This document shows positions 6,082 through 43,606 of a stretch of DNA of 64,000 bases, in pieces. The translations under genes and the position numbers were made by a program. The stretch lies in the NCBI GenBank assembly GCA_020850225.1, contig JADZFD010000045.1, positions 62,001 to 126,000 of the forward strand. Direction: 5' to 3'. Numbering within the stretch: position 1 is the first letter of the stretch; every line of letters starts with the position of its first letter. The DNA is from Saprospiraceae bacterium (GTDB lineage Bacteria > Bacteroidota > Bacteroidia > Chitinophagales > Saprospiraceae). The notes below the pieces were generated by a model that saw only the letters and a program-made list of their open reading frames with translations, did not search any database and was not told the DNA's origin.

Positions 6082-6147
6082 AGTGTAAAAATAACATAAA
6101 AACTCAAAACTCCTTAGTGAAACTTATTTAAAATGTAAATAACAAAT

Positions 6148-6270
6148 GTGAAAGGCCACTCTTTAGATAAAAAATCCAAGTCACTGATGTTAGTACCGAT
6201 AGTTATCGGGATACTTATAATTATAAATGCTATGGCTGTGCTTTTTGCCTTGATTCTTTAGGTCTTTCAC
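6148..6270 (-). repeat. Copy B of an intergenic imperfect-palindrome (MITE/REP-like) repeat
   Basis: Ends gtgaaaggcc / ggtctttcac; contains core gctatggctgtgctttttgccttgat (6229-6254), 25/26 identical to the reverse complement of 22185-22210; also contains ccgatagttatcgg palindrome. Confidence 0.6.
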
Positions 6271-6326
6271 CTAAAAAATTCAGAAATGTATAATAAGTAT
6301 TATTTTTAAAAACAAGATAAGGTATA

Positions 6327-20696: not shown

Positions 20697-22010
20697 ATGT
20701 CAAATGTACAATCTACCATAAATTACAAGGTTAAAGACATTTCTTTGGCTGAATGGGGAAGAAAGGAAATTATGCTTGCGGAAGCAGAAATGCCGGGTCT
20801 GATGTCGATAAGACAGGAGTATGCCGGAAAAGCACCTTTAAAGGGTGCTAGAATAGCAGGATGTCTGCATATGACCATTCAAACTGCTGTTTTGATAGAA
20901 ACACTTAAGGACCTTGGAGCTGAAGTTTCCTGGTCATCCTGCAATATTTTCTCTACCCAAGACCATGCAGCTGCAGCAATAGCTGCGTCCGGAACACCTG
21001 TTTATGCATGGAAAGGAATGAACGAAGAAGAATTTGACTGGTGTATTGAACAGACATTATTTGCATTCAGCGATGGTCAGCCACTCAATATGATACTTGA
21101 TGATGGAGGTGACCTGACAAATATGGTTTTCGACAGATATCCTGAATTAGTTAATGGTATCAGAGGTCTGTCAGAAGAAACAACAACAGGTGTTCACCGT
21201 CTTTATGAAAGAGAAAAGAACGGTTCTCTCGTTTTACCTGCTATCAATGTCAATGACTCAGTAACAAAATCCAAGTTTGACAACAAATACGGATGTAAAG
21301 AGTCACTGGTAGACGCCTTAAGGAGAGCAACAGACCTTATGATGGCCGGAAAAGTTGCTGTAGTAGCTGGTTATGGTGATGTTGGCAAAGGTTCTGCAGC
21401 TTCATTGAGAGGAGCAGGTTGCAGGGTAATCGTAACCGAAATCGACCCTATATGTGCGTTACAGGCTGCTATGGATGGATTTGCAGTTAAAAAATTGGAT
21501 ACAGCACTTGAAGAAGCAACCATCATAGTTACCGCAACAGGAAATAAGAACATAGTCAGAGAGGAGCATTTCAGGAAAATGAAAGACAAATCCATAGTTT
21601 GTAATATTGGCCATTTTGATAATGAAATTGATATGGCATGGCTTAACAAAAACTATGGACATTCTAAAAATTCAATCAAACCGCAGGTTGATCTATACGA
21701 AATAGATGGAAAGGATATTATTGTACTGGCGGAAGGAAGACTGGTCAATCTGGGATGTGCAACAGGACATCCGTCATTTGTAATGTCCAATAGTTTTACC
21801 AACCAGGTACTTGCACAGTTGGAGTTATGGAATCATGCCGATCAGTATGAAAATAAGGTATATACACTTCCCAAACATCTGGATGAAAAGGTTGCCAAGT
21901 TGCATTTAGCTAAAATCGGTGTTGAATTAGAACAATTATCTCAGGAACAGGCAGATTATATCGGTGTAAAAGTTGAAGGTCCTTACAAACCGGATTATTA
22001 CAGATATTAA
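20697..22010 (+). CDS. ahcY: Adenosylhomocysteinase
   Basis: [55 protein letters not shown]-terminal KPDYYRY. Confidence 0.97.
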
Positions 22011-22050: not shown

Positions 22051-22087
22051 AATGGTATGCTTTCTGTAAACAAGCATACCATTTTTT
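22051..22087 (+). terminator. Intrinsic terminator downstream of ahcY
   Basis: aatggtatgctt-tctgtaaac-aagcataccattttttg. Confidence 0.75.
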
Positions 22088-22147
22088 GTTTTCATTATTA
22101 TCAATAGTATTACACCTATTTCGATTTCTAATACGAATTTTATTTAT

Positions 22148-22275
22148 AAAATAGACCAAAGATTCAGTAATAAAGATTTCGAAGATCAAGGCAAAAAGCA
22201 CAGACATAGCGGTAGCTATGGCGAGCATTTTTAACGCAGAGATTTGGAATGTTTATATGAAGATTGGTCTATTTT
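22148..22275 (+). repeat. Copy A of an intergenic ~128 bp imperfect-palindrome (MITE/REP-like) repeat
   Basis: Perfect 12-bp terminal inverted repeats AAAATAGACCAA (22148-22159) / TTGGTCTATTTT (22264-22275); central hairpin catagc-ggta-gctatg; core 22185-22210 shared with 6229-6254 (opposite strand). Confidence 0.7.
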
Positions 22276-22334
22276 GTATGTAAAGATCGTATAAATTGGT
22301 AGTGTGACTTATGATTATTATTGGATATAAATCC

Positions 22335-22376: not shown

Positions 22377-23006
22377 ATGAAAATAGTATTAGAAAAATCC
22401 GGAATCATGTATACATTAATTTTATTACTGGCATTTATTTCCTGTAAAAATGAACACAATAGCACAGAAATAACCACCGATGAAACTACAGAAGTAGTAC
22501 AGGAGGATGCTATAAAAGATAATATATTAGAAAATGGTGAGTTGATTATTCCGGATCCGTGTACTTTAGTCACTGATGATGACATAAAGAAGTTGTTTAA
22601 TGTTCAATCGAAGGTTGCACACGTTGATATTTCATCAGGACTCAAACCCAATACGAAAACCTGTAATTTTTACTGGGATGTAAATGGCAACAGAACAGGT
22701 ATTATCCTTCAGATTCAGGCGCATACCCAAGATAGTGAACTTAATATGTCACCTGATACCTATGTTCAGGATTTAGTAAATAGAGGCATGGAAATCAGAG
22801 GTATATCTGAGCGGATTCCGTACATCAGCTTTGATGCTGCTGGTAAATCCGGTGCATATTCCTTTCAACAAGGGAGATACTTTTGGGCTGCTAACGAAAA
22901 ATATTCATTTATGTTGGTACTTCAGATACTAAATGCTGAGGAAAAAAGCATAACTAAATCTGTTCAGGGACTGACAGAAATCTTAAAAGAAGCTGTACAA
23001 AAATAA
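22377..23006 (+). CDS. Predicted lipoprotein of unknown function
   Basis: Signal peptide with lipobox LLLAFISCK; alternative start MYTLILLL at 22407; no recognised domain. Confidence 0.6.
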   Translation: MKIVLEKSGIMYTLILLLAFISCKNEHNSTEITTDETTEVVQEDAIKDNILENGELIIPDPCTLVTDDDIKKLFNVQSKVAHVDISSGLKPNTKTCNFYWDVNGNRTGIILQIQAHTQDSELNMSPDTYVQDLVNRGMEIRGISERIPYISFDAAGKSGAYSFQQGRYFWAANEKYSFMLVLQILNAEEKSITKSVQGLTEILKEAVQK

Positions 23007-41295: not shown

Positions 41296-41460
41296 ATGAA
41301 AATAATTTTGTTTTTGATACTTATAAGTCTGGTATTAGCAGGTGGTTTCCTCATTGCTTTTTTCTGGGCTGTTCGTGACGGGCAATATGATGATGAATAC
41401 ACACCCGGTATGCGTATATTGCTCGATGAAGACATGATTGATAAAAAAGCGGATAAATAA
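41296..41460 (+). CDS. ccoS: cbb3-type cytochrome oxidase assembly protein CcoS
   Basis: Hand translation: MKIILFLILISLVLAGGFLIAFFWAVRDGQYDDEYTPGMRILLDEDMIDKKADK* (54 aa); absent from the ORF track. Confidence 0.92.
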   Translation: MKIILFLILISLVLAGGFLIAFFWAVRDGQYDDEYTPGMRILLDEDMIDKKADK

Positions 41461-41488
41461 AATAATTAAACATTATAAAATCAAGTTT

Positions 41489-43606
41489 ATGGCAAATTTG
41501 GAGACATTCAGTTATGATAATAAGGTAGTACGAAATTTTGCTTATGCTACAATTATATTTGGAGTGATAGGCATGCTGGTGGGAATAACTGCTGCCTTGC
41601 AGTTGGTATATCCATCCTTGAATTTCGGATTGGCAGAGACTTCGTTTGGAAGAATAAGACCATTGCATACTAATGCTGTTATTTTTGCATTTGTAGGGAA
41701 CGGTATTTTTACAGGTGTATATTATTCTTTACAAAGATTGTTAAAGACCAGAATGTATAGTGATGTACTTTCCTCAATACATTTTTGGGGATGGCAGATA
41801 ATCATTTTGGCAGCAGCTATTACGTTACCATTGGGTATGACCAGTAGTCACGAATATGCAGAATTGATATGGCCGATAGATATAGCTATTGCAATAGTAT
41901 GGATTGTATTTGGAATCAATATGTTTGGTACTTTGATAAAGAGAAGAGAACAACATATTTATGTTGCCATATGGTTTTATATTGCTACATGGATTACTGT
42001 GACTGTATTGCATATTTTTAATAATATACAGATTCCGGTAAGCATGTCTTATGCTGTCAATGCTTTTGCAGGCGTACAGGATGCTTTGGTACAATGGTGG
42101 TACGGACACAATGCTGTAGCATTTTTCCTTACTACGCCCTATCTGGGATTAATGTATTATTTTTTACCCAAAGCTGCTAACCGACCTGTTTATTCGTACA
42201 AACTTTCAATTATTCACTTTTGGTCATTGATATTCTTATATATTTGGGCTGGACCACACCATTTATTATATACATCTTTACCTGATTGGGCACAATCTTT
42301 GGGAACAGTATTCTCCATTATGCTGATTGCTCCATCATGGGGAGGTATGTTAAACGGACTTTTGACCTTAAGAGGTGTCTGGGACAAAGTAAGAACAGAT
42401 CCTATTCTTAAGTTTTTTGTAATAGCTGTAACCGCCTATGGTATGGCAACGCTTGAAGGGCCGCTATTATCCGTTAAATCACTTAATGCTATAACACACT
42501 ATACAGACTGGACAGTAGCACATGTACACATCGGTGCTTTGGGATGGAATGGAATGCTTACATTTGGTATGTTGTATTGGTTATTACCAAGAATATATGG
42601 GACAAAACTGTATTCAGTAAAATTAGCTAACACGCATTTCTGGATAGGAACATTAGGTATATTATTTTATGCTATTCCTTTATATTGGGCAGGTTGGACA
42701 CAATCTCTTATGTGGAAACAATTCACACCGGATGGTCTTTTACAGTATGGAAATTTCTTAGAGACCGTAACCCAGATACTTCCTATGTACCTGATAAGAG
42801 CTATTGGAGGTACAATTTATTTTATAGGAGTAATAGTGATGATATACAATTTGTATAAAACAGTTCAATCAGGTCACCTTATAGCCAATCAGGAAGCATC
42901 TGCTCCGGCTTTGGAAAAATATATACCAGAGAAAAATGAACATTGGCACAGATGGATAGAACGAAAACCTATTCAGATGTTATTCTGGAGTGCAATAGTA
43001 ATACTGATTGGTGGTATAATTGAGATTATACCTATGATGATGATCGACGAAAATGTTCCCAAAATAGCCTCAGTAAAACCGTATACTCCGTTGGAACTCG
43101 AAGGACGCGACATATATATACGGGAGGGATGTGTTAACTGTCACTCACAAATGATACGACCATTCAGATCGGAAACAGAACGGTATGGAGAATATTCCAA
43201 ATCTGGTGAATTTATTTATGACAGACCTTTCTTATGGGGTAGTAAGCGTACAGGTCCGGACTTACACCGAATAGGAGGAAAATACCCGGACAGCTGGCAT
43301 TACAATCATATGCTTGATCCTACTTCCATGTCACCTGGTTCAATTATGCCTCCGTATCCATGGTTGTTGGAAGATGATTTGAATACCAGTTATACACCTG
43401 CAAAGATCAGAATATTACAGTCACTTGGAACACCATATCCTGACGGATATGCGGAGAAAGCTGTAGAAGATCTTAAGAATCAGGCTAAAAAAATAGCCTC
43501 TAATCTTGCGAAAGATAAGATCAAACAGGATAATCTGGAAAATAAAGAGATAATTGCTGTAATTGCTTACCTGCAAAGATTAGGCACGGACATAAAAGTT
43601 AAATAA
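41489..43606 (+). CDS. ccoNO: cbb3-type cytochrome c oxidase fused CcoN-CcoO; probable start at 41489 (track start 41438 is TTG)
   Basis: Heme-copper oxidase subunit I (LHTNAVIFAFVGNGIFTGVYYSLQ, WWYGHNAVAFFLTTPYLG, HVHIGALGWNGM) followed by REGCVNCHSQMIRPFRSETERYG mono-heme CcoO. Confidence 0.96.
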   Translation: MANLETFSYDNKVVRNFAYATIIFGVIGMLVGITAALQLVYPSLNFGLAETSFGRIRPLHTNAVIFAFVGNGIFTGVYYSLQRLLKTRMYSDVLSSIHFWGWQIIILAAAITLPLGMTSSHEYAELIWPIDIAIAIVWIVFGINMFGTLIKRREQHIYVAIWFYIATWITVTVLHIFNNIQIPVSMSYAVNAFAGVQDALVQWWYGHNAVAFFLTTPYLGLMYYFLPKAANRPVYSYKLSIIHFWSLIFLYIWAGPHHLLYTSLPDWAQSLGTVFSIMLIAPSWGGMLNGLLTLRGVWDKVRTDPILKFFVIAVTAYGMATLEGPLLSVKSLNAITHYTDWTVAHVHIGALGWNGMLTFGMLYWLLPRIYGTKLYSVKLANTHFWIGTLGILFYAIPLYWAGWTQSLMWKQFTPDGLLQYGNFLETVTQILPMYLIRAIGGTIYFIGVIVMIYNLYKTVQSGHLIANQEASAPALEKYIPEKNEHWHRWIERKPIQMLFWSAIVILIGGIIEIIPMMMIDENVPKIASVKPYTPLELEGRDIYIREGCVNCHSQMIRPFRSETERYGEYSKSGEFIYDRPFLWGSKRTGPDLHRIGGKYPDSWHYNHMLDPTSMSPGSIMPPYPWLLEDDLNTSYTPAKIRILQSLGTPYPDGYAEKAVEDLKNQAKKIASNLAKDKIKQDNLENKEIIAVIAYLQRLGTDIKVK

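Follow-up and report, generated by a model that had tools for sequence, protein, structure and literature searches.

The element lying between ahcY and a lipoprotein-like gene in the window (the whole stretch of 64,000 nucleotides that was analysed) is mobile, MITE-like and dispersed, and is not a local cis element. It probably belongs to a superfamily of non-autonomous, MITE-like elements of about 160 bp which are bounded by terminal inverted repeats (TIRs) and moved in trans, and of which one strand has been selected to fold. The copies are dispersed, have precise ends and short duplications and possess no gene of their own, and in two lineages the ends are those of IS630. A new finding is that the core, CAAGGC...CATAGC-N4-GCTATG...AACGC, spans Bacteroidota and also occurs in Burkholderiales. 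The positions of all features are given in the table.

Features of the element and of its neighbourhood in the window
Feature	Position	Strand	Basis or remark
ahcY (S-adenosylhomocysteine hydrolase), upstream neighbour	20697..22010	+	Pfam AdoHcyase
ahcY terminator-like hairpin and T run, upstream of the element	22051..22087	+	read from sequence
Left target-site duplication TAA	22129..22131	.	TAA present on both sides of the element
Whole mobile element	22132..22291	+	160 bp; genomic copies aligned, strand tests; + is the best-folding strand
Left TIR TACGAATTTTATTTATAAAATAGACC	22132..22157	+	pattern matches, both ends, 7/7 copies
Conserved folded core	22181..22245	+	model R1: 88.8 bits, E 2.9e-23
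Near-invariant CAAGGC	22187..22192	+	5' side of internal loop
Tip hairpin CATAGC-GGTA-GCTATG	22205..22220	+	core fold
Conserved AACGCAG	22233..22239	+	3' side of internal loop
Right TIR GGTCTATTTTGTATGTAAAGATCGTA	22266..22291	+	pattern matches, both ends, 7/7 copies
Right target-site duplication TAA	22292..22294	.	flanks of genomic copies compared
Lipoprotein-like gene, downstream neighbour	22377..23006	+	no Pfam match
Decayed second copy	6130..6290 (approximate)	-	hairpin tip replaced by CCCGATAACTATCGG palindrome

The draft genome of 3.25 Mb possesses seven full copies along with remnants, at 82-100% identity, and additional solitary or decayed ends were also found. In the alignment of the seven copies the TIRs are 26 bp long and imperfect, with TACGAATTTTATTTATAAAATAGACC on the left and GGTCTATTTTGTATGTAAARATCGTA on the right. 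Past the aligned ends, similarity among the copies is limited to the repeated flanks. Target-site duplications were looked for and are of 3 bp at the window copy and at most other genomic copies, with matching TTA or TAA flanks in six of the seven (TAA in the window copy); in genome G221 such flanks were found in all 11 copies examined. The sequence-only reading had described a palindrome of about 128 bp with perfect 12-bp ends. The palindrome is real but its limits were drawn too narrowly, as it forms the inner part of the 160-bp element; the 12-bp repeats (22148-22159 and 22264-22275) are present, as an internal part of the longer TIR and not as ends. The central hairpin which it proposed was confirmed. 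The 26-nt match (25/26) at 6229-6254 on the minus strand was likewise found again; it belongs to a decayed copy of the 160-bp element, of which it is the core, rather than to another short palindrome. The covariance model alone scores this copy weakly (13.3 bits). The 20-nt core pattern gave 2 matches against 0.01 expected, which is more than chance. The idea of a MITE-like element thus gained support from a copy number above two, from the 3-bp duplications and from the lack of a copy at the ahcY of relatives; the label REP-like does not hold in the strict sense, REPs being without target duplication. Several copies of the same genome (L004, L007, L076 and window 6195-6215) contain an inserted palindrome, CCCGAYAGCTATCGGG, at the hairpin or close to it; in two of them it measures 15 bp. 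A 347-codon frame which adjoins a solitary TIR on contig C13 (L072:1542-2582) resembles, by eye, the N-terminus of a HipA-type kinase.

AhcY was present in 26 of the 31 genomes searched. The core was absent from all readable ahcY downstream stretches of relatives, and the lipoprotein-like gene was not beside ahcY in their readable loci; among the loci compared, this gene occurred only in the genome of the window. As synteny downstream of ahcY is not kept in relatives, no clean empty site was found there. Seven unlinked copies, taken with the absence at the readable ahcY loci of relatives, settle that the element is dispersed and does not serve to control ahcY. A local role, as cis-regulatory element or terminator of ahcY or the lipoprotein gene, would suit the position between the two genes and the possible hairpins with T runs. 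It is exceedingly improbable, being refuted by the seven full copies at unrelated loci and the absence at orthologous loci in all readable relatives; moreover, ahcY already has its own terminator-like hairpin upstream of the element. In agreement with the earlier reading, no transposase was found among the 35 window ORFs scanned. The element itself has no transposase gene, and the open frames across its core are not conserved. That the core is a mobile short coding sequence (for example ISALKMLAIATAMSVLFALIF) can hardly be believed: most cores are open on both strands, but the frame is shifted where the tip loop has 3 or 5 nt (L057, L037, L049), other members contain stops and conservation tracks base pairing. 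This peptide-coding reading was rejected because the frame is not kept among members. Elsewhere in the window, a single 722-aa ORF (41438-43606) combines a cytochrome oxidase subunit I (COX1) domain with a FixO domain, representing a fused ccoN-ccoO.

BLAST against 60 relatives showed that the core of about 65 nt is common to other genera and to another family of the order, where it lies in elements with quite different ends. A covariance model was built for the core and run on genomes sampled from the phylum, and the core was found in at least 10 of 396, a lower bound since scoring was limited to 13 candidates in each genome. When 84,980 species genomes were scanned for the pattern, 113 stretches matched, mostly from Saprospiraceae and other Bacteroidota, along with two Comamonadaceae bins. 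The core is also carried by complete plasmids of Variovorax, Cupriavidus and Mitsuaria, so the Comamonadaceae matches are not mere contamination; in Variovorax and Cupriavidus the copies sit in elements of about 160 bp with their own ends. The elements were gathered by similarity to the core, a procedure which misses families with diverged cores. The core pattern was not matched in IMG/VR viral contigs, and Rfam, at gathering and at relaxed thresholds, gave no match to the element in the window and in eight loci. At the Burkholderia multivorans orthologue of a Cupriavidus site the element is absent, with flanks too diverged to define the junction. Taking the element out of the sequence to see whether an interrupted gene is restored gave no convincing case. 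In G221 the end pattern was matched 422 times, against 99 for a reversed-pattern control. Tandem head-to-tail core matches about 161-162 bp apart (G004:C2:18240 and 18402, G004:C14:126905 and 127066, and L175:5530-5770) look as though a later element had used the target duplication of a previous insertion as its own site. Minimal palindromes which consist of hardly more than two TIRs (G454:C8:26929-26958, G454:C56:45556-45585 and L416:2001-2065) are probably products of internal deletion.

The length of the elements is nearly constant while their ends vary. In a set of 39 non-redundant elements (below 80% identity to one another) the length was 151-171 bp with a mean of 158.8 bp, a spread which comes partly from end detection, and the hairpin is central, flanked to its left and right by an arm of about 72 nt. 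The outer 20 nt of these elements fall in about 23 TIR clusters, giving more than 20 dissimilar TIR sequences; the clusters are approximate and some are related, so their independence is imperfect. Examples are TACGAATT, TACCAATT, AGTGCTCTGTC, AGGCATTATTACG, TATACTCCCCTCGG, TATAGTTCTCCAAGG and AGTAACGATAAAA. The closed genome G162 has four copies with four different ends. One set of elements, including that of the window, shows a 3-bp TNA duplication (TTA, TAA or TGA, and TCA in Comamonadaceae). In a second set the flanks are TA, often as part of CTAG, which is the hallmark of IS630. Two TIR types match insertion sequences of the IS630 family. In the closed genome G237, a 1,219-bp IS630-family element shares the ends CTAGTGCTGCGTCAAG with the small elements of the same genome, and, independently, an IS630 (DDE_3) of Variovorax starts with AGTCCACTGAATCATTGAAAT, as does one end of a Cupriavidus small element.

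Partners of the 3-bp type were searched among the transposases of IS630 DDE_3 (PF13358), DUF4096/IS5 (PF13340), HTH_38/IS30 (PF13936) and DDE_Tnp_1 (PF01609), and none had the ends of the window's type (TACGAATTTTA, 3-bp TNA) in a draft genome which may miss insertion sequences. In view of the TNA duplication an IS1031-type partner was looked for, and PF13340 was absent in 10 genomes. TIR pairs at IS distance in the genome of the window, G221, Mesonia and all collected DNA gave only the IS630 of G237 and longer elements with nested cassettes. An IS630-derived MITE was considered for the window's type and rejected, since its duplication is of 3 bp and the intact IS630 of the genome, on contig C60, has different ends (CTAGTACTGTATTCAAT). 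The same genome also has a broken transposase gene of the IS630 family (C106:5887-6320; L225, L228). Long elements of 238-710 bp with the same ends occur on G221 contigs C4, C6, C11, C22 and C48 (L301-L338). At the hairpin position they contain concatenated hairpin cassettes of about 90 bp, GACTGAATGAAG...CGTAAATCG...GGAACCGA...TCGGGTGGG, which look like nested REP/BIME-like units.

The earlier suggestion of a structured RNA gained real support from a conserved, covarying and strand-biased fold. With DNA parameters the window strand folds at -21.4 kcal/mol, against -8.25 +/- 2.25 for 200 dinucleotide shuffles (z -5.8), none of which was as good. The consensus fold is composed of 27 pairs, 21 of them with compensatory change, and 95.6% of the core pairs are standard compared to 86.4% after shuffling (0/500). 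Strand orientation was defined by the core, so the test on the arms is independent of the arms themselves. On the CAAGGC...AACGC strand the arm mismatches comprise 111 G.T against 42 A.C; per element, G.T is in excess in 31 and A.C in 6 (p 4e-5), and purine-purine mismatches are far above pyrimidine-pyrimidine ones. When the core was replaced by a tetraloop, the arms were more stable on the core-defined strand in 38 of 39 elements, by 9.9 kcal/mol on average, while the core alone showed no strand preference. Averaged by TIR cluster the preference was found in 23 of 23, including the high-GC clusters. The other strand folds well too (mean -48 against -58 kcal/mol), and a single pair of the tip hairpin is frequently A.C when read on the favoured strand (7/26), which counts against a simple picture. 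Taken together, this strongly suggests that selection has preserved in one strand the capacity to form a long, imperfect hairpin around a fixed core.

MITEs are widespread and usually fold, and the group may be an ordinary one whose core is no more than a common remnant, with a strand asymmetry due to mutation bias or asymmetric IS ends. Recent singleton changes are indeed slightly in excess in the same direction (48:36), and the relatedness of some TIR clusters weakens the count of independent cases. The recent bias is however weak and not significant (p 0.23) beside the 111:42 of the fixed arm mispairs, so no more than part of the asymmetry can be put down to mutation bias. The preference in every TIR cluster and the compensatory change which keeps the core across phyla also speak against such an origin, which we judge improbable.

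DNA parameters give the same strand preference, in 38 of 39, and hence do not separate RNA from single-stranded DNA. The selected form could be single-stranded DNA in transposition, in the manner of IS200/IS605 or REP-RAYT, as replication makes every copy single-stranded without a promoter and the tip tolerates nested palindromes. Orientation to neighbouring genes is random, with no clear bias (++23, --16, +-13, -+18), and no conserved promoter for the favoured strand was identified; a transcript of this strand is thus not assured, and single-stranded DNA is the main alternative. On the other side, no orientation bias was seen relative to GC skew as a measure of replication strand (44 against 39 loci), and both the short duplications and the sharing of ends with IS630 (DDE) suggest a DDE mechanism acting on double strands. 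REP/IS605 insertion is not known to produce a target duplication, whereas duplications are present here. Single-stranded DNA as the selected form is rather unlikely. An RNA is the more likely folded strand, its function being inferred; it is favoured by the tolerance of G.U pairs, the purine-rich loops and the handling of Correia elements by RNase III (PMC2649163, PMC2229807).

The closest known kinds are the Correia/NEMIS and ERIC elements. Correia elements (CREE/NEMIS) of Neisseria are non-coding, of about 105-157 bp, and have inverted repeats, a conserved core and many intergenic copies; their transcripts form a hairpin processed by RNase III, and no autonomous partner is established (PMC2649163, PMC2229807). 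The present elements are alike in being non-coding, in their inverted repeats with a conserved core and in their many intergenic copies. They differ in sequence and hosts; Correia has a single type of TIR and goes into TA or, in some cases, CA targets, while here there are many TIR types, a length of about 160 bp, a 3-bp TNA or TA duplication and a core in two phyla. Membership in Correia/NEMIS was rejected because TIR and core differ from the motifs in PMC2649163 and the duplication is of 3 bp. ERIC/IRU of enterobacteria is a dispersed 127-bp imperfect palindrome forming one long stem-loop, with reported orientation-dependent effects on mRNA stability (PMC2229807). The resemblance lies in the dispersed imperfect palindrome and its long stem-loop, but ERIC is unrelated in sequence and is one family with a 7-bp TIR and no described TIR replacement (PMC2229807). 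MITEs derived from IS630/Tc1-mariner, such as RUP, are matched by two TIR types in their TA/CTAG target and IS630-family ends, but not by the window's type, whose duplication is a 3-bp TNA and for whose ends no matching IS630 was found in the genome. REP/REPIN with RAYT (PMC3116915) are similarly short, palindromic, non-autonomous and intergenic. REPs are however without TIR-bounded precise ends and target duplications (PMC3116915), and the target duplications of the element exclude it from REP/RAYT. MITECca01 of Cardinium, a Bacteroidota MITE of about 240 bp whose TIR matches a resident IS (PMC9769881), is similar by description, its partner (IS982) being from another family. A search of the literature found no relevant text with the core strings and no matching Bacteroidota MITE. 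The element is a MITE in the broad sense, being short and non-autonomous with TIRs, duplications and multiple dispersed copies.

A resident transposase that recognises the ends of each type would move the element in trans, IS630 moving the TA/CTAG types and another enzyme the 3-bp TNA type. The fold kept throughout would consist of the tip hairpin, an inner stem of AT or GC pairs, the CAAGGC/AACGC internal loop and arms that run out into the TIRs. The terminal sequences, by contrast, were probably exchanged time and again or have diverged past recognition. As a best guess by analogy, the functional form would be a read-through transcript of the favoured strand, a hairpin RNA of about 160 nt. 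A host enzyme specific for double strands, such as RNase III, might bind or cleave it as for Correia/NEMIS, and such handling would make insertions tolerable.

Bacterial MITEs are usually described as the shortened derivative of one IS family per species. In the present case a single folded core of constant size reappears in different families and phyla, with unrelated ends and a strand-biased fold. The covariance model is a practical annotation aid for this abundant repeat, for which no name was found. We tentatively suggest, with low confidence, a class of element in which a fixed single-strand fold of about 160 nt, as RNA or single-stranded DNA, is the conserved heritable part and the ends recognised by the transposase are interchangeable. 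The core would have passed from one transposase system to another, unrelated one, and also between Bacteroidota and Burkholderiales, with the fold aiding mobility or survival in the host. With this finding it can be tested directly whether selection on small mobile elements acts on folded RNA or on single-stranded DNA, and how a transposase parasite switches its provider.
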